A stretch of 48,082 bases of DNA from positions 1-48,082 of IMG/VR virus record IMGVR_UViG_3300035681_000828. One strand, written 5' to 3'. The notes beneath the pieces are model-generated. The model ran no database searches. It worked only from the letters and a program-made list of their open reading frames with translations, and was not told the DNA's origin. The stretch's first letter is position 1; the number at the start of each line of letters is the position of its first letter. Shown one piece after another: positions 6,659 to 19,811 of this stretch. Both the position numbers and the translations under genes were made by a program. This stretch comes from a virus.

Positions 6659-6997
6659 ATGAACTTAGAAAAGCCCACCCGCAAAAAACGAGTAGACCGC
6701 ACTCATATCATCTATGAGCTACGTGTCAACGGAGACAACTACATAGGAGTCACTGCCAAAACAGAGACTACTATTAATAAGTCAGTTCTTGCTCGTGCAG
6801 CCAAGCACTTCTATCGTGCCAAACGTGAGAACAAGGACTGGCTGTTGTGCAGAGCCCTTCGTGGTCTCAACGACAAGAGCGAGATCGAAGTGTTGGTTCA
6901 TGAAACACTGCGCGGCAAGGCAGCTGCCCACAAGCGTGAGGTAGAACTACGTCGCGCAATTAACCCTACACTGAACACGGATGTTCGTGGGGACTGA
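6659..6997 (+). CDS. GIY-YIG-like small protein
   Basis: A 112-residue protein. HIIYELRVNGDNYIGVT resembles the first strands of the GIY-YIG nuclease fold (GIY changed to IYE, YIG kept). A basic helical segment follows, and HKREVELRRAINPTLNT matches the conserved C-terminal Glu-helix with the LN signature. It may cut or bind DNA; the changed GIY leaves catalysis uncertain. The ATG sits 6 nt after the -10 box, so the mRNA should be leaderless. Confidence 0.65.
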   Translation: MNLEKPTRKKRVDRTHIIYELRVNGDNYIGVTAKTETTINKSVLARAAKHFYRAKRENKDWLLCRALRGLNDKSEIEVLVHETLRGKAAAHKREVELRRAINPTLNTDVRGD

Positions 6998-7026
6998 TTG
7001 ACAGCGTGGCAAAACACTGCTATAAT
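6998..7026 (+). promoter_or_regulatory. Early promoter with dual start
   Basis: TTGACA (directly after the upstream TGA stop), 17 bp, TATAAT. An in-frame ATG lies 6 nt after the -10 box at 7033, and a second at 7051 follows AAGGAGCGAT. Confidence 0.9.
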
Positions 7027-7050
7027 ACACACATGTTAACAAGGAGCGAT

Positions 7051-7221
7051 ATGATTACAGAAGACATTAACGTTATCGAAGGCATCAAAGCCCGTTTGAA
7101 TACAGGCATGCTGGAGACCATGATCTACATTGATGCTAACTCAGAAGAGTTCACCCTAGCAGAGCTTAGGGCCTACTTTAGAGTCAAAGCAGAATTCCAA
7201 AAATTGTTTGAACCAGCCTAA
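7051..7221 (+). CDS. 56-residue unknown early protein
   Basis: MITEDINVIEGIKARLNTGM..., helical and acidic, no family recognised. AAGGAGCGAT lies immediately before the ATG at 7051. Starting at the leaderless ATG at 7033 would give 62 residues. Transcribed with the next gene, 11 nt downstream. Confidence 0.65.
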   Translation: MITEDINVIEGIKARLNTGMLETMIYIDANSEEFTLAELRAYFRVKAEFQKLFEPA

Positions 7222-7232
7222 GGAGACCCAGC

Positions 7233-7442
7233 ATGGCACAGGTAGAAGGCAAGACCGTCAAGGTCGGTGATTGGGTAGGCTTCAAGGCTGATGTTGAACA
7301 ATGTGGGCAGATCATAGAGATCAAGAGCAGCTACATGGGACATGCTCTGGTCCTAGAGAACAAGGCAGGGTTCCACGGTGACTACATTGGTGGGCAAACA
7401 ATAACCACAGAGCAGGCCAGGGATTGTTGGCTTGAAGGTTGA
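7233..7442 (+). CDS. Small beta-barrel-like protein, unknown
   Basis: A 69-residue protein beginning MAQVEGKTVKVGDWVGFKAD, with alternating short strands and glycines like an SH3/KOW-type barrel. No catalytic motif. AAGGAG lies 8 nt upstream. Its Gly-stop codons GGT-TGA form part of the following -35 box. Confidence 0.65.
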   Translation: MAQVEGKTVKVGDWVGFKADVEQCGQIIEIKSSYMGHALVLENKAGFHGDYIGGQTITTEQARDCWLEG

Positions 7443-7467
7443 CAGAACTGCCGTTTGGTGCTATAAT
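7439..7467 (+). promoter_or_regulatory. Early promoter overlapping a stop codon
   Basis: TTGACA (containing the upstream TGA), 17 bp, TATAAT; leader ends TAGGAGCGAACT before the ATG at 7501. Confidence 0.9.
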
Positions 7468-7500
7468 AGACACTTACACTAACAAACATAGGAGCGAACT

Positions 7501-7770
7501 ATGAAAGCATTAGAGAAGTTTATAGAGCAGAAGAATCACTGGAACTCATTCTTCAAAGGCGAGCAATACGAGATCGCCACAGCCCAGGGTCGTCAACGAG
7601 TAGCGGACATGATTGACTCTGCACTAAGTCCAGAGAACCTTACATGTGATGGTGAGCTGAGCAGAACAGAAGTCCAGCGCCGTTACAGGGAATTGATGAC
7701 AGCTGCCAAGCAGTTGAAGAAGTTGGATCCGTCAGTTACATTCTACGAATACTCAGAGGAGATTGCATAA
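7501..7770 (+). CDS. Unknown early protein
   Basis: An 89-residue, helical, charged protein (MKALEKFIEQKNHWNSFFKG...; ends FYEYSEEIA). Extended ribosome site AGGAGCGAA. Its stop shares an A with the next ATG (TAATG), so the two are translationally coupled. No known domain. Confidence 0.7.
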   Translation: MKALEKFIEQKNHWNSFFKGEQYEIATAQGRQRVADMIDSALSPENLTCDGELSRTEVQRRYRELMTAAKQLKKLDPSVTFYEYSEEIA

Positions 7771-8204
7771 TGGGCACACGATCAAGAGTAGCAGTCATGC
7801 ATGGCGATGTCTGTAAAAGCGTCTACTGCCACTACGACGGCTATCTGGACTACACAGGGCGCATTCTGTTGAGCCACTATGATTCCACAGCAGCAAATGC
7901 TCTGATTGCACGTGGGGACAATTCGGGCGTCAAAGAGACCCTAGAGGAAATGAACTTCTACGAGGATCGGGAAGCTGAGGGTGAGGACGTTGAAGAGTTT
8001 GTTAACAGCACTCCCTGGGCTGTGGCACACTCATTCGAAGAGTTCCTCGATCAGGTCCAGGGTTGCTATGGTGAATACTACTATGTCATGCGGGACGGAG
8101 TATGGTATGCGGGTGCTGTATACGAAACTGAGGGCTTGATCAAGAACGGTTTGGTAGCACTCAAAGACGCAATTGCTGCGATAGAAGCAGCAGATGTGGC
8201 ATAA
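7770..8204 (+). CDS. Conserved phage protein (MGTRSR family)
   Basis: A 144-residue protein. MGTRSRVAVMHGDVCKSVYC plus HYDGYLDYTGRILLSHY is a signature I recognise from many phage hypothetical proteins, without an assigned function. The body is acidic and rich in aromatic residues. Coupled to the preceding gene by TAATG. Confidence 0.75.
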   Translation: MGTRSRVAVMHGDVCKSVYCHYDGYLDYTGRILLSHYDSTAANALIARGDNSGVKETLEEMNFYEDREAEGEDVEEFVNSTPWAVAHSFEEFLDQVQGCYGEYYYVMRDGVWYAGAVYETEGLIKNGLVALKDAIAAIEAADVA

Positions 8205-8217
8205 AAACAACAGGCCA

Positions 8218-8256
8218 CAAACAGGGGTTGACAACTCCCCTGTTTGAGTGCATAAT
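8218..8256 (+). promoter_or_regulatory. Early promoter with 10-bp inverted repeat around -35
   Basis: CAAACAGGGG (8218-8227) and CCCCTGTTTG (8237-8246) are a perfect inverted repeat with TTGACA (8228-8233) in the 9-nt centre; CATAAT follows after 17 bp (8251-8256). It can act as an operator, or as a hairpin ending the upstream transcript. Confidence 0.8.
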
Positions 8257-8293
8257 AGAGACTATGTTAACAACACACACAGGAGCGAAATCC

Positions 8294-9394
8294 ATGCGTA
8301 TCACACTAAGCCAAGGCCAATACGGCGCCAAAAGCAATCAGATCTATCCCGGCATTGAGCTGGATATGGTTGGGGACTTTGTCACAGAAGCCAACAACGG
8401 TTGGGAAGGCTACATCAAGGCTCGTTCAGGCTACAACATCAAGGGTGGCGGTGAGACCTGTAAGGTCTGGTGCAACCAAAGTGACATTGCTACCATGGCG
8501 GCTCCTGCTGGTGTTACCATGTTGCAGGCTCTGGCTAAACCCGCTAAGGCTGGCAAGAACGATGCTACTGTTACAGACTTTAGCCAGGTCAAAGTGCCAG
8601 ACTCTGCTGTCGCAGACGAAACTGATGAGCAGATCATTGAGCGCACTAGACTGCGCTTTGAGATCCTCAAGGACATGACCAAAGCAGTCAAGACTGGTGA
8701 CGTTCGTGCTATGATTGTCACAGGCCCTCCAGGTGTGGGCAAGAGCTTTGGTGTTGAAGAAGTTCTAGCCAAAGATGACCTGTTCGATCTCATGGGACAG
8801 CGCAAGCCCAAGTATGAGATCGTCAAGGGTGCTATGAGTGCCATTGGCCTGTATAGCAAGCTCTACAAATACAGTGATCCCAAGAACATCATTGTGTTCG
8901 ATGACTGCGACAGCATTCTTTTGGACGACGTTGCACTTAACATTCTCAAGGCCGCTTTGGACACTTCAAAGAAGCGTACCATTTCGTGGAACACTGACAG
9001 CCGTGTGCTACGCTCAGAAGGAGTGCCTGACAAGTTTGATTTCAAGGGCGGTGCTATCTTTATCACCAACTTGAAGTTTGAGAATGTTCGCTCTAAGAAA
9101 CTGCAGGAGCACTTGGCGGCATTGGAGTCACGCTGTCACTTCATCGATCTGCGCATGGACACAGACCGTGAGAAGGTTCTGCGTATCAAGCAGATCGTCA
9201 AAGACGGCATGTTGGACTCCTATGAGCTTGAGGATGTTGCTAAGGACGAGATCGTGGACTTCATCCTTGAGAATCGTAGCCACATGCGAGAGCTGAGCCT
9301 GCGAACTGTTTTGAAGTGTGCAGACTTGAAGAAGAGCTTCCCTACTAACTGGCAGAACATGGCCAAGGTCACTGTTATGAAGGGCATGGCCTAA
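8294..9394 (+). CDS. AAA+ ATPase
   Basis: A 366-residue protein. An N-terminal domain of about 110 residues (beta-rich, GYIKARSGYNIKGGG) precedes the ATPase core: Walker A GPPGVGKS at 144-151, Walker B NIIVFDDCD near 199-206, and a sensor-like segment GGAIFITN. Such phage ATPases may remodel nucleoprotein or protein complexes; the substrate is unknown. AGGAGCGAAATCC precedes the ATG at 8294; another in-frame ATG at 8264 lies 7 nt after the -10 box. It is one of three ATPase-linked proteins in 5 kb, with the MoxR/VWA pair downstream. Confidence 0.85.
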   Translation: MRITLSQGQYGAKSNQIYPGIELDMVGDFVTEANNGWEGYIKARSGYNIKGGGETCKVWCNQSDIATMAAPAGVTMLQALAKPAKAGKNDATVTDFSQVKVPDSAVADETDEQIIERTRLRFEILKDMTKAVKTGDVRAMIVTGPPGVGKSFGVEEVLAKDDLFDLMGQRKPKYEIVKGAMSAIGLYSKLYKYSDPKNIIVFDDCDSILLDDVALNILKAALDTSKKRTISWNTDSRVLRSEGVPDKFDFKGGAIFITNLKFENVRSKKLQEHLAALESRCHFIDLRMDTDREKVLRIKQIVKDGMLDSYELEDVAKDEIVDFILENRSHMRELSLRTVLKCADLKKSFPTNWQNMAKVTVMKGMA

Positions 9395-9395
9395 T

Positions 9396-9611
9396 ATGAG
9401 TGAGTGCCAATACATAGGGTCAGAGCAGACCAAGTGGCCCTACACTATGTGTGGACAAAAGAATCTTGAGGGCAAGAGCTATTGTGCAGATCACTATTGG
9501 GTGGTCTACAAGAAAGGAAGCTCTAACCTCAAGACCAACACCAAGGCCATTGATGCAGAGATCGCAGAGCTGAAACGGCTACAAGAACTCGAGGAGATTG
9601 AAAATGTTTGA
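9396..9611 (+). CDS. Small zinc-binding protein, GcrA-like spacing
   Basis: A 71-residue protein with Cys and His ligands (SECQY, TMCGQ, SYCADHYW) arranged C-x14-C-x9-C-x2-H, similar to the C-terminal zinc region of GcrA-type transcription cofactors, then a coiled C-terminus (AELKRLQELEEI). The GcrA link is tentative. It starts 1 nt after the ATPase stop, so it is in the same operon. Confidence 0.6.
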   Translation: MSECQYIGSEQTKWPYTMCGQKNLEGKSYCADHYWVVYKKGSSNLKTNTKAIDAEIAELKRLQELEEIENV

Positions 9612-9804
9612 TAGTATCGTAAAGGTCACCGTGGCCATAGCACTGATCATCCTGCTATTGGCCATTGGACCCTGGTTGGTGATTTGGGCCCTGAATACTC
9701 TGTTCCCTGTGCTGGCTATCCAGTTCACATTTTGGACATGGTGTGCTGTGGTTATCTTGGGCACGTTCTTTCGAGCGAATGTGTCTGTAAAACGGAAGGA
9801 TTGA
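9604..9804 (+). CDS. Two-helix membrane protein
   Basis: A 66-residue protein with two hydrophobic segments (VAIALIILLLAIGPWLVIWA and FWTWCAVVILGTFF) and a basic tail (KRKD). GAGGAG is 9 nt before the ATG at 9604; it overlaps the preceding gene by 8 nt. Function unknown; a lysis or membrane role is possible. Confidence 0.7.
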   Translation: MFDSIVKVTVAIALIILLLAIGPWLVIWALNTLFPVLAIQFTFWTWCAVVILGTFFRANVSVKRKD

Positions 9805-9863
9805 GCTTGACCTTAGATCAGCGTTCTGTTATTATAATAAAACGCTGATGAAGTTCAGCTCAA
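9801..9863 (+). promoter_or_regulatory. Palindromic operator-promoter of the HTH gene
   Basis: TTGACC (9807-9812), 17 bp, TATTAT (9830-9835). The promoter lies inside nested inverted repeats: TTGAGCT/AGCTCAA (9801-9807 and 9857-9863) and ATCAGCGTT/AACGCTGAT (9817-9825 and 9841-9849), flanking the -10 box. It is the most symmetric regulatory site in the window and precedes a helix-turn-helix gene, so autoregulation is likely. Confidence 0.8.
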
Positions 9864-9882
9864 CAACAAAGGAAACTTAAAC

Positions 9883-10152
9883 ATGAAACGTTTCAATCCA
9901 GAAACAAAGACTTTCAAGGTCTTCAACGCACTCTACAATGGTGCAGCTCTTACAGCAGCTCAAGCTCGTAAAATGGGTGTAGGCAACCTGTCAGCAGAAG
10001 TCAGCCGCATCAAGCAGAATGGTTATGCTGTTTATGCTAACCAACGCACAGCAGGCAATGGCGTGACTGTCACAGAATACGTGATGGGCCAGCCAAGCCG
10101 TGAAATCGTTGCTCTAGGCTACAAGGCCAAGGCATTGGGCATCACTCTTTAA
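9883..10152 (+). CDS. Helix-turn-helix protein (phage HTH_39-like)
   Basis: An 89-residue protein. Residues 10-45 (FKVFNALYNGAALTAAQARK, then MGVGNLSAEVSRIKQNGYAV) read as a winged helix-turn-helix of the type common in phage genomes, followed by a beta wing (NQRTAGNGVTVTEYVMG). It is probably a DNA-binding regulator. Its ribosome site is AAAGGAAAC, unlike the AGGAGCGA of other early genes. The promoter is embedded in a large palindrome, and the 3' untranslated region carries the anti-ribosome-site hairpin, so this gene may be a regulatory hub. Confidence 0.75.
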   Translation: MKRFNPETKTFKVFNALYNGAALTAAQARKMGVGNLSAEVSRIKQNGYAVYANQRTAGNGVTVTEYVMGQPSREIVALGYKAKALGITL

Positions 10153-10161
10153 TTAGGGTTT

Positions 10162-10230
10162 CAAAGACAAGCCGATTCGCTCCCGGGGCGTCTTTGGAGG
10201 GTGTTGTGTAAAAGCAACACCCTTTTTCTT
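10162..10230 (+). ncRNA. 3'UTR hairpin with anti-Shine-Dalgarno loop, then terminator
   Basis: Hairpin 1: CAAAGAC/GTCTTTG (10162-10168, 10190-10196) enclosing CCG-ATTCGCTCC-CGG. The loop is complementary to GGAGCGAA, the extended ribosome site of at least eight nearby early genes. Hairpin 2: GGGTGTTG/CAACACCC followed by TTTTT (10199-10227) is a strong terminator. The layout resembles 3'UTR-derived small RNAs. RNA function is inferred. Confidence 0.55.
10199..10227 (+). terminator. Rho-independent terminator
   Basis: An 8-bp stem GGGTGTTG/CAACACCC, an 8-nt loop, then five T. Confidence 0.9.
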
Positions 10231-10253
10231 TGGCCGGCACTCTCCAAAAGAGG

Positions 10254-10282
10254 TTGACAGATTGGATAAATGATAGTATACT
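10254..10282 (+). promoter_or_regulatory. Early promoter
   Basis: TTGACA, 17 bp, TATACT; leader TAGGAGCGAGT before the ATG at 10312. Confidence 0.9.
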
Positions 10283-10311
10283 AGCATCATAGTAAGAACT
10301 TAGGAGCGAGT

Positions 10312-10941
10312 ATGCAATTCACAGCAGATCAAGTATGGGGTGCCGCGGTAGCTGCAGATCGTATCAACGGGGGCTATCTCAAAGAGCCTGTATACGCTCA
10401 AAACCTAGATGTGATCGAGAAGCAGGCCAACAAGCAGATGGTCAAAGATTGGCTCCGCAGCAACTCCTTCTCGCTGGTTACAGCTGCAGATATCGAGAGG
10501 GGTCGTGAGGTTCGCAACTACTTCAACGGCTTTCTACTCAAAGAGATCGCAGGCAAGATCAACGACTTTGAACGTCAGGCCCTGAAGATCGCCCAAAAGG
10601 ATGAGTTCACAGGTCGCGATATGTTTGATTTCGCTGTGGTCTCATGCTTGCCAGCTGCTATGCTGCGCGATCAAGCCAAGAACCAACTCACAACTGAGAT
10701 CAGGTTCAGCACCCAGCTTGTTGCTGCTGTTGGTGATCGCATCCAGGGAGACATCGAAGTGATCAAATGCTACTGGAACCAGAACTATGGCAAGTGGCGT
10801 GTCACGGCCCGTATGGGTGAGAGCTTTGTGGACTTTTGGGCTTCTGAGGAGTTTAAGGGCACAGTCAGCATCAAAGCCAAAGTCAAAGCCCAGCGTGGCG
10901 ATAATACAACACAGTTGAATTATGTGAAAATCGTAGGTTGA
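10312..10941 (+). CDS. Conserved phage protein, unknown
   Basis: A 209-residue protein (MQFTADQVWGAAVAADRING...). A helical N-terminal half with DIERGREVRNYF is followed by a C-terminal beta region that looks like an OB-type or jelly-roll fold (KCYWNQNYGKWRVTARMG, TVSIKAKVKAQ). It resembles widespread phage hypothetical proteins. Single-stranded DNA or RNA binding is a guess from the fold impression only. Its Gly-stop GGT-TGA builds the next -35 box. Confidence 0.7.
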   Translation: MQFTADQVWGAAVAADRINGGYLKEPVYAQNLDVIEKQANKQMVKDWLRSNSFSLVTAADIERGREVRNYFNGFLLKEIAGKINDFERQALKIAQKDEFTGRDMFDFAVVSCLPAAMLRDQAKNQLTTEIRFSTQLVAAVGDRIQGDIEVIKCYWNQNYGKWRVTARMGESFVDFWASEEFKGTVSIKAKVKAQRGDNTTQLNYVKIVG

Positions 10942-10966
10942 CAACTGAGCAGATTGGTGTTATACT
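10938..10966 (+). promoter_or_regulatory. Early promoter overlapping a stop codon
   Basis: TTGACA containing the upstream TGA stop, 17 bp, TATACT. A long leader (about 45 nt) runs to the ATG at 11018, with GCGAGG as ribosome site. Confidence 0.85.
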
Positions 10967-11017
10967 TATGATACTGAGAGATTAATTGTTTTAACCGTTT
11001 TTAACTAGCGAGGTCTT

Positions 11018-12103
11018 ATGTCAAAGCAAACTGATATTTCCGTCCGTCAAGTAGGCCCTAAGGGTGCTATGAAGGCGATCCGTAAGGCGATTCAAACTCG
11101 TCGTCCTACATTCCTGTGGGGCCCTCCCGGCATTGGCAAGAGTGATGTTGTCAAGCAGATCGGCGAGCAGGCAGGCCGTGAAGTGGTTGACGTTCGACTG
11201 GCCCTGTGGGAACCCACAGACATCAAGGGTATCCCCTACTACAATGCTGATCAGGGCAAGATGGTCTGGGCTCCTCCCAGCGAACTGCCTACAGACCCAG
11301 AGAGCACCGCAATCATCTTCTTGGATGAGTTGAACTCCGCTCCCCCAGCCGTGCAAGCCGCGGCCTATCAGTTGATCCTGAACCGCCGTGTAGGCACATA
11401 CAAATTGCCTGCAGGTGTTGACGTGGTTGCCGCCGGTAACCGTGAAGGTGACCGTGGTGTGACATATCGTATGCCAGCTCCGTTGGCTAACCGTTTCGTC
11501 CACTTGGAGATGAAGGTAGACTTTGATGACTTCCAAGACTGGGCTACGCTCAACAAGGTGCATCCAGAGGTCTTGGGTTATGTGGGTTTTGCCAAGCAAG
11601 ACTTGTATGACTTTGATCCTAAGAGCCCTTCAAAGTCATTCGCAACTCCACGCTCTTGGGTGTTCGTCAGCGAACTCCTGCAGGACGATGACTGCGACAA
11701 CGACACACTGGCCACCCTGATCGCTGGTGCGGTTGGTGATGGCTTGGCTACCAAGTTTATGGCTCACCGTAAGATTGCAGGACGCTTGCCTAAGGCAGAG
11801 GACATCCTCAGCGGTAAGGTCAAGGACCTGCAGATCAAAGAAGTGTCAGCCATGTATTCATTGACCGTGTCTTTGTGCTATGAGTTGAAAGACCAAGCAG
11901 AGAAGAAGGCCAAGGGTTGGGATGGTATGGCAGACTGCTTCTTCCGCTACATGATGGACAATTTCCCAACTGAGTTGGTTGTGATGGGTGCCAAGACTGC
12001 ACTTACCAATTATGACTTGCCTTTGGATGCAACGAAGATGAAGAGCTTCGATGAGTTCCACAAGCGTTTCGGTAAGTATGTTCTCAGTGCTATGGAGAAT
12101 TAA
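11018..12103 (+). CDS. MoxR-type AAA+ ATPase
   Basis: A 361-residue protein. Walker A GPPGIGKS at 35-42, Walker B IIFLDELN at 99-106, sensor AAGN at 138-141, and MPAPLANRFVH typical of MoxR-family ATPases. MoxR proteins pair with von Willebrand A proteins to mature or remodel other proteins, and the next gene encodes exactly such a partner. The pair is separated by a possible attenuator and its own promoter. The target of the pair in the infected cell is unknown. Confidence 0.9.
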   Translation: MSKQTDISVRQVGPKGAMKAIRKAIQTRRPTFLWGPPGIGKSDVVKQIGEQAGREVVDVRLALWEPTDIKGIPYYNADQGKMVWAPPSELPTDPESTAIIFLDELNSAPPAVQAAAYQLILNRRVGTYKLPAGVDVVAAGNREGDRGVTYRMPAPLANRFVHLEMKVDFDDFQDWATLNKVHPEVLGYVGFAKQDLYDFDPKSPSKSFATPRSWVFVSELLQDDDCDNDTLATLIAGAVGDGLATKFMAHRKIAGRLPKAEDILSGKVKDLQIKEVSAMYSLTVSLCYELKDQAEKKAKGWDGMADCFFRYMMDNFPTELVVMGAKTALTNYDLPLDATKMKSFDEFHKRFGKYVLSAMEN

Positions 12104-12105
12104 GA

Positions 12106-12158
12106 CCTCGCCCATAGCAAGGGCGGGAGCTTCTCAGAGTTGCCCGCCCACCTTTTTT
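12106..12158 (+). terminator. Terminator with competing hairpin (possible attenuator)
   Basis: GGGCGGG (12121-12127) can pair with upstream CCTCGCCC (12106-12113) or with downstream CCCGCCC (12143-12149), the latter followed by TTTTTT. The two hairpins exclude each other. A ribosome at the MoxR stop codon (12101-12103) would cover the upstream arm and favour the terminator. Confidence 0.65.
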
Positions 12159-12160
12159 GG

Positions 12161-12189
12161 TTGACAGGTGTGTAAATAGATGCTATAAT
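12161..12189 (+). promoter_or_regulatory. Early promoter
   Basis: TTGACA, 17 bp, TATAAT; leader AAGGAGAGCGACAC before the ATG at 12215. Confidence 0.9.
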
Positions 12190-12214
12190 ATACACATACT
12201 AAGGAGAGCGACAC

Positions 12215-13420
12215 ATGGACCCAATCGTAGAGAAACTAACAACTGCACGAGTAGGACTGCTACTCAAAGCGCCTTTCTTTGGCAACATGGCCACTCGTAT
12301 GCGTTTGATCCAAAGCGACGACTGGTGCCCGACTGCGGCCACTAACGGTCGTGACTTTATGTATAACACAGAGTTCGTCAAGAAGCTCAGTGTTAAGAAA
12401 CTAGAGTTCCTCTTTGCACATGAGATCTGTCATGCTATCTTTGATCACTTTGGTCGTTGCGGTAGCAGAGATCGTATGCTGGCGAACATCGCACAAGACT
12501 ACGCTGTCAACCAGATCCTTGTAGACGAACGCATTGGTGAGAAGATCACTGAAGTTAAGATCTGCTATGATCCAAAGTATCGCGGCATGGCTTGGGAAGA
12601 GATCTACGATCAATTGTATGAGCAGGCAGAGAAGATCCCTATGGATCAATTGCTCAAGCAATTGGGCGATCTCTTAGACGAGCACATCAAAGAAGAAGAA
12701 GGTGCTGGTGCTGGCGGCGACAAGACCAAAGACGGCAAGGGCAAGCCTAGCCTTACCAAAGAAGAAGCAGAAAAGATCAAGCAAGAGGTCAAAGACGCAA
12801 TGATCCAAAGTGCCGCGGCCGCAGGTGCAGGCAAGACTCCTGCAGGCATCATGCGTATGATCAAGAACATGACTGAGCCTAAGATGGACTGGCGCCAGTT
12901 GGTGCAACAAGAGATCCAAAGCATCGTTCGCAACGACTACTCCTTTCAGCGTGTGAATCGCAAGAGTATGCACTCAGGTGCCATACTGCCGGGCATGAAA
13001 GAAGCAACTACTATCGACGTGGCAATCAGCATTGATATGTCAGGTTCAATTGGTGACGAAGATGCAACTGCATTCCTCAGCGAGATCAAAGGCATCATGG
13101 ATCAGTATGAGGACTTCCGCATTAACTTGTGGTGCTTTGACACAGACATCTACAACTGGAAGACCATCACACACGACGAAGGTCACGAGTTAGAAGAGTA
13201 TGAACCACAGGGTGGCGGTGGCACAGACTTTGAAGTCAATTGGACATTCATGGAAGAGAACGGTATCCAGCCCAAGAAGTTTATTATGTTCACAGACGGC
13301 TACCCATGCGGTGGTTGGGGTGACGAGGACTACTGCGATACAATCTTTATCGTCAAAGGCAATACACAGGCCAACGCACCGTTTGGTCAGACTGTGATCT
13401 ATGAGAAGGAGACTGCATGA
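12215..13420 (+). CDS. Metallopeptidase-like (HEXXH) plus VWA domain protein
   Basis: A 401-residue protein of the DUF2201 type. The N-terminal domain carries HEICH at 69-73 within FAHEICHAIFDH, a zinc-peptidase-like motif. A charged linker (160-200) follows. A VWA-like domain starts near 265 with the metal-binding site DMSGS at 274-278, Thr337 in GGTD and FTDG at 359-362. It is the expected partner of the MoxR ATPase upstream. All metal-site residues of both domains appear intact. Whether the HEXXH cuts proteins in this family is not established. Confidence 0.9.
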   Translation: MDPIVEKLTTARVGLLLKAPFFGNMATRMRLIQSDDWCPTAATNGRDFMYNTEFVKKLSVKKLEFLFAHEICHAIFDHFGRCGSRDRMLANIAQDYAVNQILVDERIGEKITEVKICYDPKYRGMAWEEIYDQLYEQAEKIPMDQLLKQLGDLLDEHIKEEEGAGAGGDKTKDGKGKPSLTKEEAEKIKQEVKDAMIQSAAAAGAGKTPAGIMRMIKNMTEPKMDWRQLVQQEIQSIVRNDYSFQRVNRKSMHSGAILPGMKEATTIDVAISIDMSGSIGDEDATAFLSEIKGIMDQYEDFRINLWCFDTDIYNWKTITHDEGHELEEYEPQGGGGTDFEVNWTFMEENGIQPKKFIMFTDGYPCGGWGDEDYCDTIFIVKGNTQANAPFGQTVIYEKETA

Positions 13421-13485
13421 GCCCTACCACACCTAGGTTCCCTAACGATCCTATGGACTATGATCTACCACCACACTCAGACTGA
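13417..13485 (+). CDS. 22-residue mini-gene
   Basis: MSPTTPRFPNDPMDYDLPPH plus two residues. It begins in an ATGA overlap with the VWA stop and has AAGGAG at 13406-13411. Proline-rich; function unknown. It may be a real peptide or chance. Confidence 0.3.
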   Translation: MSPTTPRFPNDPMDYDLPPHSD

Positions 13486-13497
13486 AGTGCCAGGGGT

Positions 13498-13515
13498 TGT
13501 GGCACAAATGCCACA
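13498..13515 (+). terminator. Hairpin after the VWA operon
   Basis: TGTGGCA-CAAA-TGCCACA, a 7-bp stem with a 4-nt loop, immediately followed by the repeated GGCCCCGCTGC motif instead of a T-run. Terminator or protein-binding hairpin. Confidence 0.45.
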
Positions 13516-13526
13516 GGCCCCGCTGC
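13516..13526 (+). repeat. GGCCCCGCTGC motif, copy 4
   Basis: Exact 11-mer next to a hairpin. The 5' flank CCACA is shared with the copy at 17476. Confidence 0.6.
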
Positions 13527-13550
13527 TTACGTGTGCGTGTAATCTAGGTG

Positions 13551-13579
13551 TTGACATCTGGATAGATTGGTGTTATAAT
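13551..13579 (+). promoter_or_regulatory. Early promoter
   Basis: TTGACA, 17 bp, TATAAT; leader AAGGAGCGGTA before the ATG at 13609. Drives four overlapping small genes. Confidence 0.9.
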
Positions 13580-13608
13580 ATAGACATATTAACAAGGAAG
13601 GAGCGGTA

Positions 13609-13758
13609 ATGATAGAACTGATTTTAGCTTTCGTAGCAGGTATGATTGTAATGGACTTTATGTATGCCTGGCGCATGGGCATTCCTCAGATGTTGTGGTA
13701 TCGTTTCAAACATCGCAATGATCCTAAACCTAACTTTCGTGAATGGAGCGAAGACTAA
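13609..13758 (+). CDS. 49-residue membrane-anchored protein
   Basis: MIELILAFVAGMIVMDFMYA is a single membrane helix, then a basic, soluble tail (YRFKHRNDPKPNFREW). Its stop overlaps the next ATG (TAATG). Unknown function. Confidence 0.65.
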   Translation: MIELILAFVAGMIVMDFMYAWRMGIPQMLWYRFKHRNDPKPNFREWSED

Positions 13759-13883
13759 TGAAAATCATTTTGGCATTCATCGCTGGTATGTTCGTGGCCA
13801 CAGTGGGAATCTCTGGTGTAGCATCTGCTGTAGATAAGGCCGTTGGTAAAACTCAAGAAGTAATGAAGGAGACTGTTAAATGA
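13758..13883 (+). CDS. 41-residue membrane or exported peptide
   Basis: MKIILAFIAGMFVATVGISG followed by VASAVDKAVGKTQEVMKETVK. The hydrophobic start ending ...VASA looks like a signal peptide or single helix, with an amphipathic tail. It is related in style to the preceding gene (LAFVAGM / LAFIAGM), which suggests duplication. ATGA overlap with the next gene. Confidence 0.6.
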   Translation: MKIILAFIAGMFVATVGISGVASAVDKAVGKTQEVMKETVK

Positions 13884-14059
13884 GCGCAATGAGTAATCTG
13901 GATTACGATATCCAAGAACTATACATCGAAGGCCACAGTGCCAAGATGATCGCTGCTTTGTTAGAGTGCCCTGTAGAGCTAGTCTTAGGTGCACTTGAGA
14001 CCATGGGGGTTAAGGATGTAGAGGACGAAGAGATCTATAGTCCCTACCAAGGAGCATGA
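13880..14059 (+). CDS. 59-residue helix-turn-helix-like protein
   Basis: YDIQELYIEGHSAKMIAALL plus ECPVELVLGALETMG reads as a helix-turn-helix of the sigma-like or resolvase-like type (helix, GHSAKMIAA turn, recognition helix). It could be a small regulator. Coupled on both sides by ATGA. Confidence 0.55.
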   Translation: MSAMSNLDYDIQELYIEGHSAKMIAALLECPVELVLGALETMGVKDVEDEEIYSPYQGA

Positions 14060-14382
14060 GTAGATTAGAATACCTAGCAAGGCCCTTGGTGGCCTTTGAT
14101 CCTTACAACAAAGATCACAGACGATACTACGCAGAGTTCCTAGAAAGTGGCGGTTGGGGTTCATGCCCTGTGCGTTTTATCTGCCCCGAGGACTCGGGCA
14201 GTGACCTTACTGTTATGATCAAGAACAGCTTGATCTACTTTTACATTGAACGTGAGTTTGGTGGTGGGAAGCTGGCTAAAGCACGATCAGCTGACCTCAA
14301 GGAGCAGGCAGACCGCAGGTACAAGGAAGCGGGACAACTGCGCAAAGAGGCACAGGCTCTGATGAAACCCAGGCGCGGATAG
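14056..14382 (+). CDS. Unknown early protein
   Basis: A 108-residue protein: globular N-terminal half (FDPYNKDHRRYYAEFLESGG, CPVRFICPED) and a charged helical C-terminus (RSADLKEQADRRYKEAGQLR). AAGGAG precedes the ATG in an ATGA overlap. The end contains a weak ACCC/GGGT hairpin with TTT. Confidence 0.65.
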   Translation: MSRLEYLARPLVAFDPYNKDHRRYYAEFLESGGWGSCPVRFICPEDSGSDLTVMIKNSLIYFYIEREFGGGKLAKARSADLKEQADRRYKEAGQLRKEAQALMKPRRG

Positions 14383-14398
14383 GGTCTTTCCCAAGTGG

Positions 14399-14427
14399 TT
14401 GACAATGTGGTGAAACCTTGCTATAAT
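14399..14427 (+). promoter_or_regulatory. Early promoter, leaderless
   Basis: TTGACA, 17 bp, TATAAT, 6 nt, ATG at 14434. Confidence 0.9.
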
Positions 14428-14433
14428 ACAAGC

Positions 14434-14883
14434 ATGAACACACAATACAACACCACATACGAATTTGACTTCACAGGCAAAATCCAATTTGGAGATATGC
14501 CTGTGGAGCAACTGCACACTCTGTTTCAAGACGGTCGTGTGGCCAGCAAGTTCTTGGAGCACACGATTCCTACGTGGTTCCCGGACTTGGAGTTCGTGGA
14601 CGCCAAGGGCTATGATCACGTGAGTAAGACCACTGGACGCAAGTTTGATCTCAAAGGCTTTACCAAAGGTGGAGCCAGCTATGCCCCTAGCACCATGTTA
14701 GGGGCGGGTCGTAAGATCGACACAGTGGTGTTACACGAGCACGCCGAGAGCATCGACTACATCATCAGCGATGTTACAGAGTTCCCCAAGGTTCGAGTAG
14801 TGTTCAAACAGGGCACTGATCTAGTGCGTGATTATCCCAGCGGCAAGATTCCGCTCAAAGCCCGCAAAACACTTTTTGGTTGA
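14434..14883 (+). CDS. Possible PD-(D/E)XK nuclease-like protein
   Basis: A 149-residue protein. FVDAKGYDHVSKTTGRKFDL followed by KGFTKGG has the D...(D)xK pattern of restriction-endonuclease-like folds (FDLKG), with a Gly/Arg-rich segment after it. The assignment is weak; no close family comes to mind. The ATG is 6 nt after the -10 box (leaderless). The Gly-stop GGT-TGA forms the next -35 box. A DNA methyltransferase lies 3.6 kb downstream, but the two are not in one operon. Confidence 0.5.
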   Translation: MNTQYNTTYEFDFTGKIQFGDMPVEQLHTLFQDGRVASKFLEHTIPTWFPDLEFVDAKGYDHVSKTTGRKFDLKGFTKGGASYAPSTMLGAGRKIDTVVLHEHAESIDYIISDVTEFPKVRVVFKQGTDLVRDYPSGKIPLKARKTLFG

Positions 14884-14908
14884 CAGATTGGATCATCGGT
14901 GTTATACT
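14880..14908 (+). promoter_or_regulatory. Early promoter overlapping a stop codon
   Basis: TTGACA containing the upstream TGA, 17 bp, TATACT; AAGGAGCGAAG before the ATG at 14938. Confidence 0.9.
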
Positions 14909-14937
14909 ATAGGTATAGTGAATAACAAGGAGCGAAG

Positions 14938-15204
14938 ATGTATATTAAACTAGAATCTGACACAGAACAAGAGCGTATCATAAAGATCCTCAAGGGATGG
15001 CAGTTCGATCGCAAGCAACACGGTTGCCTGTTTGATCGTGGCAGTGCTGATTCCTACTACGGTCGATCACGTGATCCACACTACGGCGGTGTGGGAGGCG
15101 ACTCAGGTCTGCGTGTTGATCAGTTGTCTGAGGAAGAAGTAGCAGAGTATCAAAGAGGCTACACCCACAACGAACTCTACGGTGACAAGAAAGACTACCG
15201 ATGA
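14938..15204 (+). CDS. Conserved phage protein, unknown
   Basis: An 88-residue protein. CLFDRGSADSYYGRSRDPHY followed by GGVGGDSG is a motif block I recognise from many phage hypothetical proteins. Strong AGGAGCGAA ribosome site. ATGA overlap with the next gene. Confidence 0.7.
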   Translation: MYIKLESDTEQERIIKILKGWQFDRKQHGCLFDRGSADSYYGRSRDPHYGGVGGDSGLRVDQLSEEEVAEYQRGYTHNELYGDKKDYR

Positions 15205-15431
15205 AGAAGTTCACATTTTGGCGCAATGCCATCATATCGGAAATCTACGTGGTCGACGCAGCAACTGAAGAAGAAGCTCGGGAGATGCTCCAGGCAGGGG
15301 AAGTGGAAGTGTTCTCAGAAGAGTGGATGGATTGGGCAACAGACGATTTCGAGCTTGAGCACGTGGAGATCATAGACCCTTTGTACCGTATGGTTAAAGA
15401 CTACGAATCGGTTGACAAATTGAGCAACTGA
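15201..15431 (+). CDS. Small acidic early protein
   Basis: A 76-residue acidic protein (DAATEEEAREMLQAGEVEVF). The N-terminal pattern, with strands flanking an AxTEEEAxEML helix, is typical of small phage proteins of unknown role. The next promoter starts inside its 3' end. Confidence 0.65.
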   Translation: MKKFTFWRNAIISEIYVVDAATEEEAREMLQAGEVEVFSEEWMDWATDDFELEHVEIIDPLYRMVKDYESVDKLSN

Positions 15432-15440
15432 TAGTATAAT
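15412..15440 (+). promoter_or_regulatory. Early promoter inside a coding end
   Basis: TTGACA, 17 bp, TATAAT; the -35 box lies in the last codons of the preceding gene. Leader AAGGAGAGCGAGTA before the ATG at 15466. Confidence 0.9.
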
Positions 15441-15465
15441 ATACACATACTAAGGAGAGCGAGTA

Positions 15466-15675
15466 ATGGGTTATAAGACATTTGAATTCGATACAATGCG
15501 TGACAAGTATGGTCCACGCCCAGGGTTAGAAGGCCCATTCAACTTCCTTGGTAGGGTTTTGTATTACGATCCCAAAGAGGGCAAGTATTGGGATCCACGC
15601 ACAGACTTCTATGTTGAGCAGAGTGAGATGGACACACTCAACCGGAACCTGATGAATCTTTTAACAACATCTTAA
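15466..15675 (+). CDS. 69-residue unknown early protein
   Basis: MGYKTFEFDTMRDKYGPRPG... and YYDPKEGKYWDPRTDFYV, rich in Tyr and Asp. No known family. First gene of a four-gene operon with the Api92-like gene. Confidence 0.65.
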   Translation: MGYKTFEFDTMRDKYGPRPGLEGPFNFLGRVLYYDPKEGKYWDPRTDFYVEQSEMDTLNRNLMNLLTTS

Positions 15676-15684
15676 GGAGCGAAC

Positions 15685-16302
15685 ATGCCTAATTGGTGCA
15701 ACAACAACCTAACACTGGAACACGAAGACCCAGCAATGATCAAGCGTGCCGCAGATGCACTGTTGCGTGGAGAGTTCTTGAATGAGTTCATTCCAGTGCC
15801 AACGGATCTGCAGATCGTTGCAGGACGATTGGGTGACGGTGACGAGCAGAGAGAACTAGAACGCAAGACCGCTGAGAATCTAGAGAAATACGGTTATGGC
15901 AACTGGTATGACTTCTGTGTAGGCGAGTGGGGAACCAAATGGGATGTAGGCTGTGAAGGAAGCACTGATGTGCATCCAGATGGCAAGATGCTACACACCT
16001 ACTTTGATTCAGCCTGGGCTCCTCCTGTGAATGCCTATGTGAAGTTAGAAGAGTTGGGCTTCAAGGTCAACGCTATGTATTACGAATCAGGTATGGCTTT
16101 TGCTGGTGCCTACGGTGATGGCAATGATGAAGAGATCAGCCTCGAAGGCATGAGTGCCGATGATATCGAACAGCACTATCCAGAGATCAACGAAGCATTT
16201 GGCATTGCAGAAAGCATCCGGGAATACGAGGCTGAGAATGAAGAAGAGCTCACTGCTTGGATCAAGGATGGTGCCGAGAAGAAGGCGCTGATCGCAGAAT
16301 GA
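15685..16302 (+). CDS. Api92-like/YubB ferredoxin-fold protein (DUF1281)
   Basis: A 205-residue protein beginning MPNWCNNNLTLEHEDPAMIK, the hallmark of the Api92-like/YubB family, followed by the WYDFCVGEWGTKWDV segment also typical of it. The family is spread on plasmids and phages and has no established function. AAGGAGCGAAC precedes the ATG. ATGA overlap with the next gene. Confidence 0.9.
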   Translation: MPNWCNNNLTLEHEDPAMIKRAADALLRGEFLNEFIPVPTDLQIVAGRLGDGDEQRELERKTAENLEKYGYGNWYDFCVGEWGTKWDVGCEGSTDVHPDGKMLHTYFDSAWAPPVNAYVKLEELGFKVNAMYYESGMAFAGAYGDGNDEEISLEGMSADDIEQHYPEINEAFGIAESIREYEAENEEELTAWIKDGAEKKALIAE

Positions 16303-16592
16303 AAGTAATCAAACTTGATCGACGCTATAGTGGCTACGGTGTTTGGACACACAGAACCAATAGCGGTCATTGGTACGGTGAAGAAGCTCGTGCCCAAGGA
16401 CTCATGGCCTTCTACGAAATGCGATGCTACATGACGCAGATGAATGGCCCAGGCTGTTTCATTCACGAAGCGTGGGCTATCAAGAAGGCGGGTCGGGCAG
16501 TGCCGGAATGGGCCTGGGACACAGACGGCAATGTGTTCTTTCGTGACTCGGCCCTGGTTAACTTTACCTTGGCAAAGGATAGATGGTTATGA
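16299..16592 (+). CDS. Unknown early protein
   Basis: A 97-residue, Trp/Tyr-rich protein (MKVIKLDRRYSGYGVWTHRT...). It starts in an ATGA overlap with the Api92-like gene and ends in another. No recognised domain. Confidence 0.65.
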   Translation: MKVIKLDRRYSGYGVWTHRTNSGHWYGEEARAQGLMAFYEMRCYMTQMNGPGCFIHEAWAIKKAGRAVPEWAWDTDGNVFFRDSALVNFTLAKDRWL

Positions 16593-16765
16593 GAGAATAT
16601 CAATTTGTTTTCAACGTGGTTTGTGCTGGGAACGGCACACCCGATATGGCTAGAGTCGAAGAAATGATCGACCTTAGCATGCAGGATCTGGTCTTTGACG
16701 ATGAGTTCATCACCGCCCTTGACGAGAAAGAGAGTGTCACTATTCAGGTTAATTTGGTAAAATGA
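16589..16765 (+). CDS. 58-residue unknown early protein
   Basis: MREYQFVFNVVCAGNGTPDM..., a small alpha/beta protein. The ATG at 16589 (ATGA overlap, AAAGGA about 9 nt before) is preferred over the one at 16583, which is too close to the ribosome site. Last gene of its operon. Confidence 0.6.
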   Translation: MREYQFVFNVVCAGNGTPDMARVEEMIDLSMQDLVFDDEFITALDEKESVTIQVNLVK

Positions 16766-16769
16766 ATGG

Positions 16770-16798
16770 TTGACTGTTTGAATTTGGTATGCTATACT
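16770..16798 (+). promoter_or_regulatory. Early promoter
   Basis: TTGACT, 17 bp, TATACT, with a long 50-nt leader before the ATG at 16854. Confidence 0.8.
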
Positions 16799-16853
16799 AA
16801 TAACATGCTGAATGATTGGCATATTTTTAACACACACAGAAAGAGGTAACATC

Positions 16854-17165
16854 ATGGCAACAGATAAAAAGTTTGCAGTAGCAGGCGTTTCAACATACGA
16901 AGGCAAGACCAAGGTTCGTTTCGCCAACGACACCATGCGTGTCAAGATCCTGGCCAAGAACGGTCACACAGACGTGCAGCTCGTGGATCTTCCACATGAG
17001 ATGACCAAAGCGGAGATCGGTGCGCACATGGTGAGCACAGGCTTTGGCAAGGGCAACGCAGCTATCGAAGCTGCTGTAGCCTACGTAGTCAAGAAGAACC
17101 CTTCGGCCACAGCTGCCAAGGTAACTACAACTACTGTCGCGAAGGCAGAAGCTGTTGCTGAATAA
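16854..17165 (+). CDS. Conserved phage protein, unknown
   Basis: A 103-residue protein. VRFANDTMRVKILAKNGHTD is a conserved block in related marine phage proteins of unknown function; the C-terminus is Ala/Thr/Lys-rich (TAAKVTTTTVAKAEAVAE). The ribosome site AAGAGG differs from the usual AGGAGCGA. Its 3' untranslated region holds the second anti-ribosome-site hairpin, as with the gene at 9883. Confidence 0.7.
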   Translation: MATDKKFAVAGVSTYEGKTKVRFANDTMRVKILAKNGHTDVQLVDLPHEMTKAEIGAHMVSTGFGKGNAAIEAAVAYVVKKNPSATAAKVTTTTVAKAEAVAE

Positions 17166-17166
17166 C

Positions 17167-17229
17167 CCGATTCGCTCTCGGTAATCAGCAACCTTGATAG
17201 ACCCTAGTAACCCTAGGGTCTTTTTTTTT
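17167..17229 (+). ncRNA. 3'UTR hairpin with anti-Shine-Dalgarno loop, then terminator
   Basis: CCGA-TTCGCTC-TCGG (17167-17181) displays a 7-nt loop identical to the core of the loop at 10176-10183. TCGCTCTC is complementary to GAGAGCGA in the ribosome sites of the genes at 12215 and 15466. A strong terminator follows 19 nt later. RNA function is inferred. Confidence 0.55.
17200..17229 (+). terminator. Rho-independent terminator
   Basis: GACCCTAG/CTAGGGTC, an 8-bp stem with a 5-nt loop and nine T. Confidence 0.95.
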
Positions 17230-17232
17230 GGC

Positions 17233-17261
17233 TTGACATTTTGGACAACTTGTGCTATAAT
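17233..17261 (+). promoter_or_regulatory. Early promoter
   Basis: TTGACA, 17 bp, TATAAT; it starts 4 nt after the preceding T-run. Confidence 0.9.
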
Positions 17262-17284
17262 ACATTTTTAACAGAAAGTAAAAG

Positions 17285-17431
17285 ATGACAAGCAAACAAG
17301 CTAAACAAAAAATCGACAGCTTAATGTTGCAACTGCAAGACATGCTAGAACAAGTAGGACTAGACGAACACGAGCGCATACAAAATGCTTTTAATGCACT
17401 TGCAATAGAACTAGACGACGTTGTCTATTAA
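17285..17431 (+). CDS. 48-residue helical protein
   Basis: MTSKQAKQKIDSLMLQLQDM and on to IQNAFNALAIELDDVVY: a short amphipathic, coiled-coil-like protein. Ribosome site weak (AGAAAG). It lies between a promoter and a terminator, so it is a one-gene unit. Confidence 0.6.
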   Translation: MTSKQAKQKIDSLMLQLQDMLEQVGLDEHERIQNAFNALAIELDDVVY

Positions 17432-17439
17432 ACGCAAAG

Positions 17440-17466
17440 ACCCTACACCTTGTAGGGTTTCTTCTT
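17440..17466 (+). terminator. Rho-independent terminator
   Basis: ACCCTAC/GTAGGGT with a 5-nt loop, followed by TTCTTCTT. Confidence 0.8.
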
Positions 17467-17475
17467 GACCCCACA

Positions 17476-17486
17476 GGCCCCGTTGC
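17476..17486 (+). repeat. GGCCCCGTTGC motif, copy 5 (one mismatch)
   Basis: A variant of the 11-mer lying between a terminator and a promoter, with the same CCACA flank as the copy at 13516. Confidence 0.5.
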
Positions 17487-17493
17487 TAGACGG

Positions 17494-17522
17494 TTGACTT
17501 TTGATCCAAAATCCAGTATAAT
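17494..17522 (+). promoter_or_regulatory. Early promoter, leaderless, with late motif
   Basis: TTGACT, 17 bp, TATAAT, 6 nt, ATG at 17529. The -10 region runs into TATAAATA, a perfect late core, so the gene may be read early and late. Confidence 0.8.
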
Positions 17523-17528
17523 ATAAAT

Positions 17529-17918
17529 ATGGACATGACAGAACTAATCATCGCAGCAGCTGTGGGGATCTTCATAGGATGGAGAGCATCAAGACAGGTG
17601 CATCTCGATGGATTCCGGCAACTGTTGCGAGCCTTGAAGGTCTCTGAACAGGACCTACTCCGAGCCATGATCAAGATCCAATCACCAGGATGGCAGCCGG
17701 AAGATGTCGAGGAAGCCAAGGACTTGACCGTGGTAGAAATCACCCTAGAGCAACAGGGCAATCAGATCTTCGCTTACCGCAAGGATGATTCCACGTTCCT
17801 TGGACAGGGAAATGACAAGGCCACGTTGATAGATGCCATTGCCCACAGGATGAAGGATGTGAGGTTGGTGATCTCCGAAGAGGACGGCGCTGATCTGTTG
17901 CAGAAAAACAACACCTAA
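17529..17918 (+). CDS. Membrane-anchored unknown protein
   Basis: A 129-residue protein with an N-terminal hydrophobic helix (LIIAAAVGIFIGWRA) and a soluble domain (VEITLEQQGNQIFAYRKDDS). No family assigned. Leaderless at 17529; an alternative ATG at 17535 also lacks a ribosome site. Confidence 0.7.
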   Translation: MDMTELIIAAAVGIFIGWRASRQVHLDGFRQLLRALKVSEQDLLRAMIKIQSPGWQPEDVEEAKDLTVVEITLEQQGNQIFAYRKDDSTFLGQGNDKATLIDAIAHRMKDVRLVISEEDGADLLQKNNT

Positions 17919-17923
17919 TTTGG

Positions 17924-17952
17924 TTGACAATCTGGCTGTTCAGTGTTATAAT
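17924..17952 (+). promoter_or_regulatory. Early promoter, leaderless
   Basis: TTGACA, 17 bp, TATAAT, 6 nt, ATG at 17959. Confidence 0.9.
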
Positions 17953-17958
17953 ACACAC

Positions 17959-18189
17959 ATGAACAGAACAAATGACATCTTACAGTGGACCGGAGCAGCG
18001 GCCATTATCGCCATGCATGTGCTCAACGCTATGGGTCCAGAAGCATATCCCTGGAACATCATCGCAGCATTCATAGGCACAGTGGCATTCCTTGCATGGA
18101 CCGTGCGTGTGCGTAACCTACCTCAGTTCACAGTCAACGTGGTAGCACTGCTGATAGGCTTTGTGGGACTATACAAGGCATTTGGATAA
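17959..18189 (+). CDS. Three-helix membrane protein
   Basis: A 76-residue protein with three hydrophobic segments (GAAAIIAMHVLNAMG; NIIAAFIGTVAFLAWTV; VNVVALLIGFVGLYKAF). Small phage proteins of this look have no known role. Leaderless start; the next gene follows 16 nt later. Confidence 0.7.
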   Translation: MNRTNDILQWTGAAAIIAMHVLNAMGPEAYPWNIIAAFIGTVAFLAWTVRVRNLPQFTVNVVALLIGFVGLYKAFG

Positions 18190-19487: not shown

Positions 19488-19523
19488 ACACACATAGCAA
19501 CAAACAAACAGTAGGAGCGATAT

Positions 19524-19776: not shown

Positions 19777-19811
19777 ACACACATAGTAACAAAGCAATAG
19801 GAGCGAACCAA

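Follow-up and report, generated by a model that had tools for sequence, protein, structure and literature searches.

A hairpin loop at phage mRNA 3' ends complementary to an extended ribosome-binding site of putative early genes

Two RNA hairpins, A and B, were analysed in an IMG/VR virus record of 48,082 bases (IMGVR_UViG_3300035681_000828; the whole stretch is called the window), together with the extended ribosome-binding site (RBS), typically GGAGCGA, to which their loops are complementary. Genes with this site are called tagged. A preliminary description had placed the hairpins in the 3' untranslated regions (3'UTRs) of two genes, here A and B, and both were recovered there, each between the stop codon and a terminator with a T run. 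Both exceed that description, each being enclosed by an outer stem. The features are as follows (nt, nucleotides; aa, amino acids).

9883..10152, + strand: gene A, an 89-aa winged-helix-like protein, parent of hairpin A; RBS AAAGGAAAC, outside the GGAGCGA class
10162..10196, + strand: hairpin A, outer stem CAAAGAC/GTCTTTG (10162-10168 with 10190-10196)
10172-10186, + strand: apex of hairpin A, stem CCG/CGG, loop ATTCGCTCC (10175-10183)
10199..10231, + strand: intrinsic terminator 3' of hairpin A
16854..17165, + strand: gene B, a 103-aa protein, parent of hairpin B; RBS AAGAGG
17154..17192, + strand: hairpin B, outer stem GTTGCTGA/TCAGCAAC, extending into the coding end
17167-17181, + strand: apex of hairpin B, stem CCGA/TCGG, loop TTCGCTC (17171-17177)
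17201..17229, + strand: intrinsic terminator 3' of hairpin B

The product of gene A matched HTH_39 in Pfam (E value 5e-4, just under the cut-off) and gene B had no match in Pfam or PHROGs. That the two parents have other ribosome sites (AAAGGAAAC and AAGAGG) was correctly described. Only two copies of the word CCGATTCGCTC are present in the window, each on the + strand. Among the 4227 Rfam models, only tRNAs reached the gathering score in the window and five relatives; at E values up to 1, positions 10130-17240 of the window gave only NsiR1 (E value 1, 21 bits of the 39 needed), at 17179-17227, beyond loop B. The hairpin is regarded here as a new RNA family, absent from Rfam.

The ribosome sites complementary to the loops are listed below.

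7043..7049, + strand: GGAGCGA of gene 7051
7491..7498, + strand: GGAGCGAA of gene 7501
8282..8289, + strand: GGAGCGAA of the AAA-ATPase gene 8294 (phrog_1250)
10303..10309, + strand: GGAGCGA of gene 10312
12203..12211, + strand: GGAGAGCGA of the VWA gene 12215, a weaker variant site
13745..13752, + strand: GGAGCGAA before a short open reading frame (ORF) starting near 13758, absent from the preliminary list
14929..14936, + strand: GGAGCGAA of gene 14938
15454..15462, + strand: GGAGAGCGA of gene 15466, a weaker variant site poorly kept in relatives
15676..15683, + strand: GGAGCGAA of gene 15685
19514..19520, + strand: GGAGCGA of gene 19524
19800..19807, + strand: GGAGCGAA of gene 19812

The pairings proposed earlier were all found in the letters. 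TTCGCTCC matches the sites of 7501, 8294, 14938, 15685 and 19812 over 8 nt and that of 19524 over 7 nt, the loop core pairs over 7 nt with those of 7051 and 10312 (by reading), and TCGCTCTC is complementary to those of 12215 and 15466. GGAGCGA has 12 matches on both strands of the window against 2.68 expected, a number reached in 0 of 100 shuffles; one of the 12 is the complement of hairpin A itself. Complementarity between 3'UTRs and RBSs over 33×33 gene pairs gave 16 cases of 8 nt, where letter-shuffled sequence gave 6.7, and 35 cases of 7 nt, where it gave 31.3, counts that are rough as five of the 33 coordinate pairs were out of frame. In the window alone the complementarity of loop and RBS is weak evidence, modestly above chance; it is strong through the relatives. 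No minus-strand gene of the window has a GGAGCGA ribosome site, and the tag is absent from the window's own gene 7770.

Fragments of large phages make up most of the relatives reached via genes A and B. Gp23, the T4-type major capsid protein, is encoded in eight of the ten hairpin-bearing records searched (the window and G016 gave no match); among the other records searched, a match was obtained in G001, PA5oct and T4 but not in G015. In the phage GenBank collection, region 6800-18000 had no match at the DNA level and genes A and B had none among isolate phages. One A-type pattern had no hits in GTDB contigs. By the MoxR gene, the nearest isolates are PA5oct-like Pseudomonas phages, at 51%.

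Across these phages, the loop UUCGCUC(C) has three homes. Two are the 3'UTRs that follow genes A and B; the third is the AAA-ATPase gene, where it forms the loop of the terminator. At all three the loop is nearly invariant while the stems covary. TTCGCTCC lies within 120 nt 3' of gene A in 109 of 134 homologues and of gene B in 30 of 44 matches. The other 14 gene-B matches have TTCGCTCT (2), CTCGCTCC (3), a changed loop (2; L190 and L287), a cut contig (1; L185) or no such loop (6; matches of 43-52% identity). All 33 gene-B relatives of the first search carry the hairpin with loop TTCGCTCC, TTCGCTCT or CTCGCTCC. A pattern with fixed flanks and six free loop bases returned, among the matches listed, at least 162 TTCGCT (overlapping loci included) and 15 unrelated GC-rich loops. 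A second pattern scan gave 64 stretches, about ten of which resemble chance hits, with neither tagged genes on the same strand nor a terminator. The frameshifted L097 is hairpin-bearing, L221, L230 and L232 carry the hairpin at the AAA gene, and L401, the sister record of L113, has it too. A palindrome (e.g. GGATAGGCCTATCC, GGTTAGGCCTAACC) was seen 3' of gene A where the hairpin is missing in L113, L222, L226, L230 and L233. In L008, L022, L024, L090, L254 and L257 an extra CGCTCC stands outside the hairpin, right after the gene-A stop, as if a second seed, and L241 has an extra copy of the loop on an unrelated CCTAGG/CCTAGG stem.

In the 33 distinct gene-B sequences, double compensatory changes were observed at all three pairs of the apical stem (e.g. 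CCG/CGG, TTG/CAA, CAG/CTG and TCG/CGA). These sequences were picked for TCGCT[CT], leaving out L287 and L190, so the invariance of those letters in the alignment is partly by choice. Because MAFFT/RNAalifold recovered the apical stem only, the outer stem was tested by duplex energy. Its sequence varies between phages and pairs with its own partner: -12.07 against -9.97 with permuted partners for outer stem A (n = 59), -14.41 against -11.03 for outer stem B (n = 33), both sets of rows being likewise selected by loop, and -16.99 against -9.30 for the terminator-type stem (n = 18). In each case 0 of 20,000 permutations were as strong. The terminator-type test was rerun without an energy filter that might favour own pairing and that had dropped 0 of 18. 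This type comprises 18 unique hairpins whose loop caps an intrinsic terminator, 18/18 after the AAA-ATPase gene in all loci; the window's member of that gene family is 8294-9394, and a tandem double copy stands at the AAA gene in G016, G017 and G019. The mean unpaired probability of the loop bases is 0.71-0.91 per base over 142 contexts. As in anti-Shine-Dalgarno (anti-SD) small RNAs (sRNAs), a structured RNA thus has an unpaired loop complementary to SD regions.

Targets were counted in 73 dereplicated hairpin-bearing loci, each of at least 7 kb and together 1.03 Mb, chosen by CCGATTCGCTCYCGG on one strand only. They contain 91 hairpins of the CCGATTCGCTCYCGG form, nearly all with the complement of GGAGCGA. 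On the hairpin strand GGAGCGA occurs 464 times, and in 407 cases an ATG follows at a distance of 2-10 nt (the runner-up GGAGNNN heptamer reaches 71); on the opposite strand, 2 of 130 precede an ATG by that distance. In 285 of the 410 GGAGCGA start windows (407 distinct sites) the next base is an A, which matches a U of the loop. The 406 tagged genes fall into 63 protein families by single-linkage BLAST, so that the candidate targets are several and unrelated.

The boundaries of the class are kept between phages. Among the hairpin-bearing representatives, GGAGCGA was found in the homologues of 8294 (84/85), 10312 (87/102), 7770 (72/96), 7501 (35/40), 14938 (24/32) and 15685 (21/39), and in none of those of 9396 (0/93), 11018 (0/90), 14056 (0/38), 15201 (0/28) and 7233 (0/16). 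A sigma70-like promoter lies within 120 nt of 373 of the 406 tagged genes, against 4 of 406 when shuffled; by promoter type, the tagged genes would be early. On this point the preliminary interpretation is supported: the site is common to genes that have sigma70-like promoters, and the hairpin is kept in many phages and mostly goes missing along with the sites. Tagged starts can be tightly clustered, with 14/14 of G017 within 94-106 kb of 147 kb and 12/12 of G019 within 67-79 kb of 108 kb; in G007 and G011 several lie outside the cluster. Of the 142 parents examined at homes A and B, 141 had a start found and none has GGAGCG; these parents avoid the tag, and the source of the RNA would therefore be spared. 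The 18 loci with terminator-type parents gave a start in 16, with GGAGCGA in 12 and GGAGCG in 14, leaving two without. Being mostly tagged, these parents would be under direct feedback.

The preliminary description had further matched loop B to GAGAGCGA. As a co-adapted pair of their own these two do not hold, since relatives keep GGAGAGCGA without that loop: of 66 hairpin-bearing representatives, 58 retain GAGCGA at the 12215 site, usually within GGAGAGCGA, and TTCGCTCT loops were seen only in the window and near relatives (L003-L005, L013). For 15466, GGAGCGA or GAGCGA was found in only 4 of 21 homologues. With the co-adaptation of TCGCTCTC and GAGAGCGA removed, what is supported of that interpretation is a structured 3'UTR RNA whose unpaired, near-invariant loop is complementary to an extended ribosome site; the release of an RNA of 60-80 nt and the shut-off of early translation would be its putative consequences.

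Loop and tag were also compared for presence across whole records. Among 15 long records there are twelve with 8-22 tagged starts, and none of these twelve lacks TCGCTCCCGG, although some hits of this ten-base word are incidental, e.g. at 25473 in the window. G001 (357 kb) has no loop and two tagged starts, and G015 (170 kb) has neither. Sites kept where the loop is lost were sought in these 15 records, and G018 alone has several sites without a proper hairpin: it has five tagged starts, its sole TCGCTCCCGG overlaps one of them, and the record ends inside the cluster. A sister record of G018 has tandem hairpins. In a second set of 11 records the loop-bearing G005 and G006 have 12 and 3 tagged starts, and G020, G021, G022, T4 and PA5oct, without the loop, have 0, 0, 0, 0 and 1. 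G003 and G004 also lack the loop and have one and two tagged starts, and in G002 the single ATTCGCTCC overlaps one of its three.

Six representatives are hairpin-negative (L091, L095, L224, L264, L269 and L273). These loop-less rows are scattered on the gene-A tree, with six changes for six rows, at least five of them forced by well-supported branches, in a tree of 90 columns whose bootstrap is unsettled and which may reflect gene exchange. Fourteen rows were scored 'unknown' because 20-kb loci or fragments may not include the AAA gene. The loop-less L091, L095, L264 and L273 have 11 target-gene homologues (30-83% identity), and GGAGCG was found in none of them. A different RBS element, AGGGCAA, is repeated in L095 and the L091 group, and other lineages may use other tags. 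In L095 a 5'UTR often has two copies of this element, one close to the promoter and one at the RBS. A matching loop had been predicted for it; no convincing hairpin with a TTGCCC loop after a gene was found in the 357-kb L095 record or in G004 (L091 group), so that either the prediction is wrong or AGGGCAA has a different sort of partner.

Since the hairpin loop is the complement of the RBS of the putative early genes, it probably switches these genes off by base pairing. The stem would present the unpaired loop (A)UUCGCUCC, which would pair over 7-8 nt with the extended SD GGAGCGA(A) and hide it from the 30S subunit; occlusion of the SD is the simplest reading of the mechanism. Over 425 sites the predicted duplex of loop and site has a mean of -13.0 kcal/mol, against -7.2 kcal/mol when an anti-SD tail takes the place of the loop; shuffling of the flanks lowers the openness of the sites from 0.64 to 0.52. 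The RNA would be made as the 3' end of an mRNA, of gene A, of gene B or elsewhere of the AAA-ATPase gene with the loop capping the terminator, and would act in trans on many early mRNAs, a delayed negative feedback ending or limiting early translation. We give a probability of roughly 0.78 to a phage-encoded family of anti-SD RNAs that acts in trans on an early regulon by hiding GGAGCGA(A) and so ends or limits early translation. Structure, stem covariation, the near-invariant loop, the target set with its class boundaries and the co-occurrence of loop and tag are read from the sequences themselves; from these we infer that the RNA acts in trans, that it represses and does not activate, that it is released in short form, and when it acts.

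Several observations weigh against this interpretation. Loop and ribosome site are both near-invariant and show no covariation with each other. A sigma70-like promoter also precedes 300 of 587 other ORFs of at least 100 aa, the degree of clustering of tagged genes differs between records, about 11% of the 142 contexts have a less open loop, and the three homes may not be independent origins. Phosso has three stray ATTCGCTCC and two tagged starts, and the L091 group has no hairpin yet 1-3 tagged starts in 30-39 kb. Target homologues in the loop-less lineages are mostly only 30-51% identical, and several loop-less records are fragments of 30-40 kb. AGGGCAA was found without a matching hairpin, and a shared extended RBS can therefore exist without such an RNA.

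The hairpin could instead be a site for a phage or host RNA-binding protein, or an element of mRNA stability or processing, its complementarity to the RBS being incidental. This is unlikely: the apical hairpin is conserved in sequence too, mostly including the stem CCG/CGG, and lies beside or inside terminators, but such a site leaves unexplained why conservation in 63 gene families extends past the SD core into GCGA and why sites are scarce where the loop is absent. The extra CGCTCC in 7 of 109 gene-A 3'UTRs, six outside the hairpin and that of L241 on the unrelated stem, also speaks against it. Quite improbable as well is that GGAGCGA is a favoured ribosome site spread by a copied promoter-leader cassette, with the loop aimed at host mRNAs or rRNA. 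A promoter and an A/C-rich leader are indeed common to early leaders, L095 repeats an extended RBS without the hairpin, and some bacterial 16S rRNAs contain GGAGCGAA; GGAGCGA is, however, constant while the leaders vary, and copying accounts for neither the loop nor its co-occurrence with the site.

A real pairing confined to cis, inside one polycistronic or read-through transcript, would suit the clustering of targets and hairpins on one strand in several records and the AAA gene, which is both terminator-type parent and target. Most tagged genes have a promoter of their own, though, the hairpins are followed by terminators and no parent at home A or B is itself a target, which makes action in cis only very improbable.

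The end of early translation in phages is best known from T4, where a protein brings it about. T4 RegA competes with the ribosome and thereby keeps translation from starting on about 30 mRNAs (PMC3014915), and the candidate RNA would likewise be one phage regulator of translation initiation on many mRNAs. RegA is a protein reading A+U-rich sites, whereas here an RNA loop would base-pair with a G-rich SD; the RegA family is a conserved protein of about 122 aa and the feature described here is an RNA. The RegA profile (PF01818) matched T4 (E value 2.3e-75) and 0 of 13 other records, ten of them hairpin-bearing, with some of these ten incomplete. On these sequences the odds are somewhat better than even that widespread large phages, mostly with a T4-type capsid, use a two-class translational code: early genes would bear an extended ribosome site private to them, and an RNA acting in trans, with a home in three or more mRNA 3' ends, would read this tag, shut the class off as a whole and replace RegA.

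In Staphylococcus, RNAs of the RNAIII, RsaE and IsrR type use an unpaired pyrimidine-rich (C-rich) loop to pair with the SD regions of several mRNAs. Here, by contrast, the phage encodes both the RNA and the targets detected for it, and the extension GCGA of the site marks the class. The mRNA 3' ends OppZ and CarZ base-pair with translation start regions and inhibit translation, and pairing of the icaR 3'UTR with the SD inhibits translation on the same principle (PMC7398697, PMC3868564). All three act on their own transcript, whereas hairpins A and B leave their parents alone and would be directed at other genes; the own start region is not paired at homes A and B. Phage-encoded regulatory RNAs include OOP, sar, PreS, VpdS and 24B_1 (PMC12197685), and section 2 of that review describes none that recognises an RBS class common to a set of phage genes. 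The literature search found no phage RNA addressing a gene class via a shared extended ribosome site, most subscription journals lying outside its coverage. The kinds of component (anti-SD sRNAs, 3'UTR-derived RNAs, a phage repressor of early translation) are known; it is their combination that appears to be new. If true, a whole gene class would be controlled by one RNA through the ribosome-site tag that its members share. Such an arrangement would end early translation in a compact and self-contained manner and would be a natural translational switch of one RNA for many genes.

A separate system was found at the MoxR gene, whose own start region does have a complement in its 3' end.

11008..11018, + strand: MoxR ribosome site GCGAGGTCTTA, of the gene at 11018
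12101..12111, + strand: TAAGACCTCGC across the MoxR stop codon, an exact 11-nt complement of the gene's own ribosome site

In 67 representatives including the window the two ends covary, for example with GAGTGAGGAAG occurring with CTTCCTCACTC, AGAGGTTA with TAACCTCT and GGTCTAGT with ACTAGACC. Own pairing has -17.09 against -14.96 when permuted (standard deviation 0.24; lowest of 5000 permutations -15.89), and it shrinks to six shared nt in L109, L274, L102 and L032. Judged by this covariation, 5'-3' or sRNA autoregulation of the icaR/OppZ kind is probable, and the MoxR pairing is a closer match to icaR than hairpins A and B are. Covariation of a 3' end with a ribosome site in these phages makes the proposed action of the hairpins on the tagged genes more plausible.

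The MoxR ATPase gene is adjoined by 12215-13420 (+ strand), encoding a DUF2201 metallopeptidase-VWA protein; PHROGs labels this family HNH endonuclease, which the Pfam match does not support. Elsewhere in the window, a nodulation-type carbamoyltransferase gene (29167-30636, - strand) lies between genes for a DnaB-like helicase and a primase.

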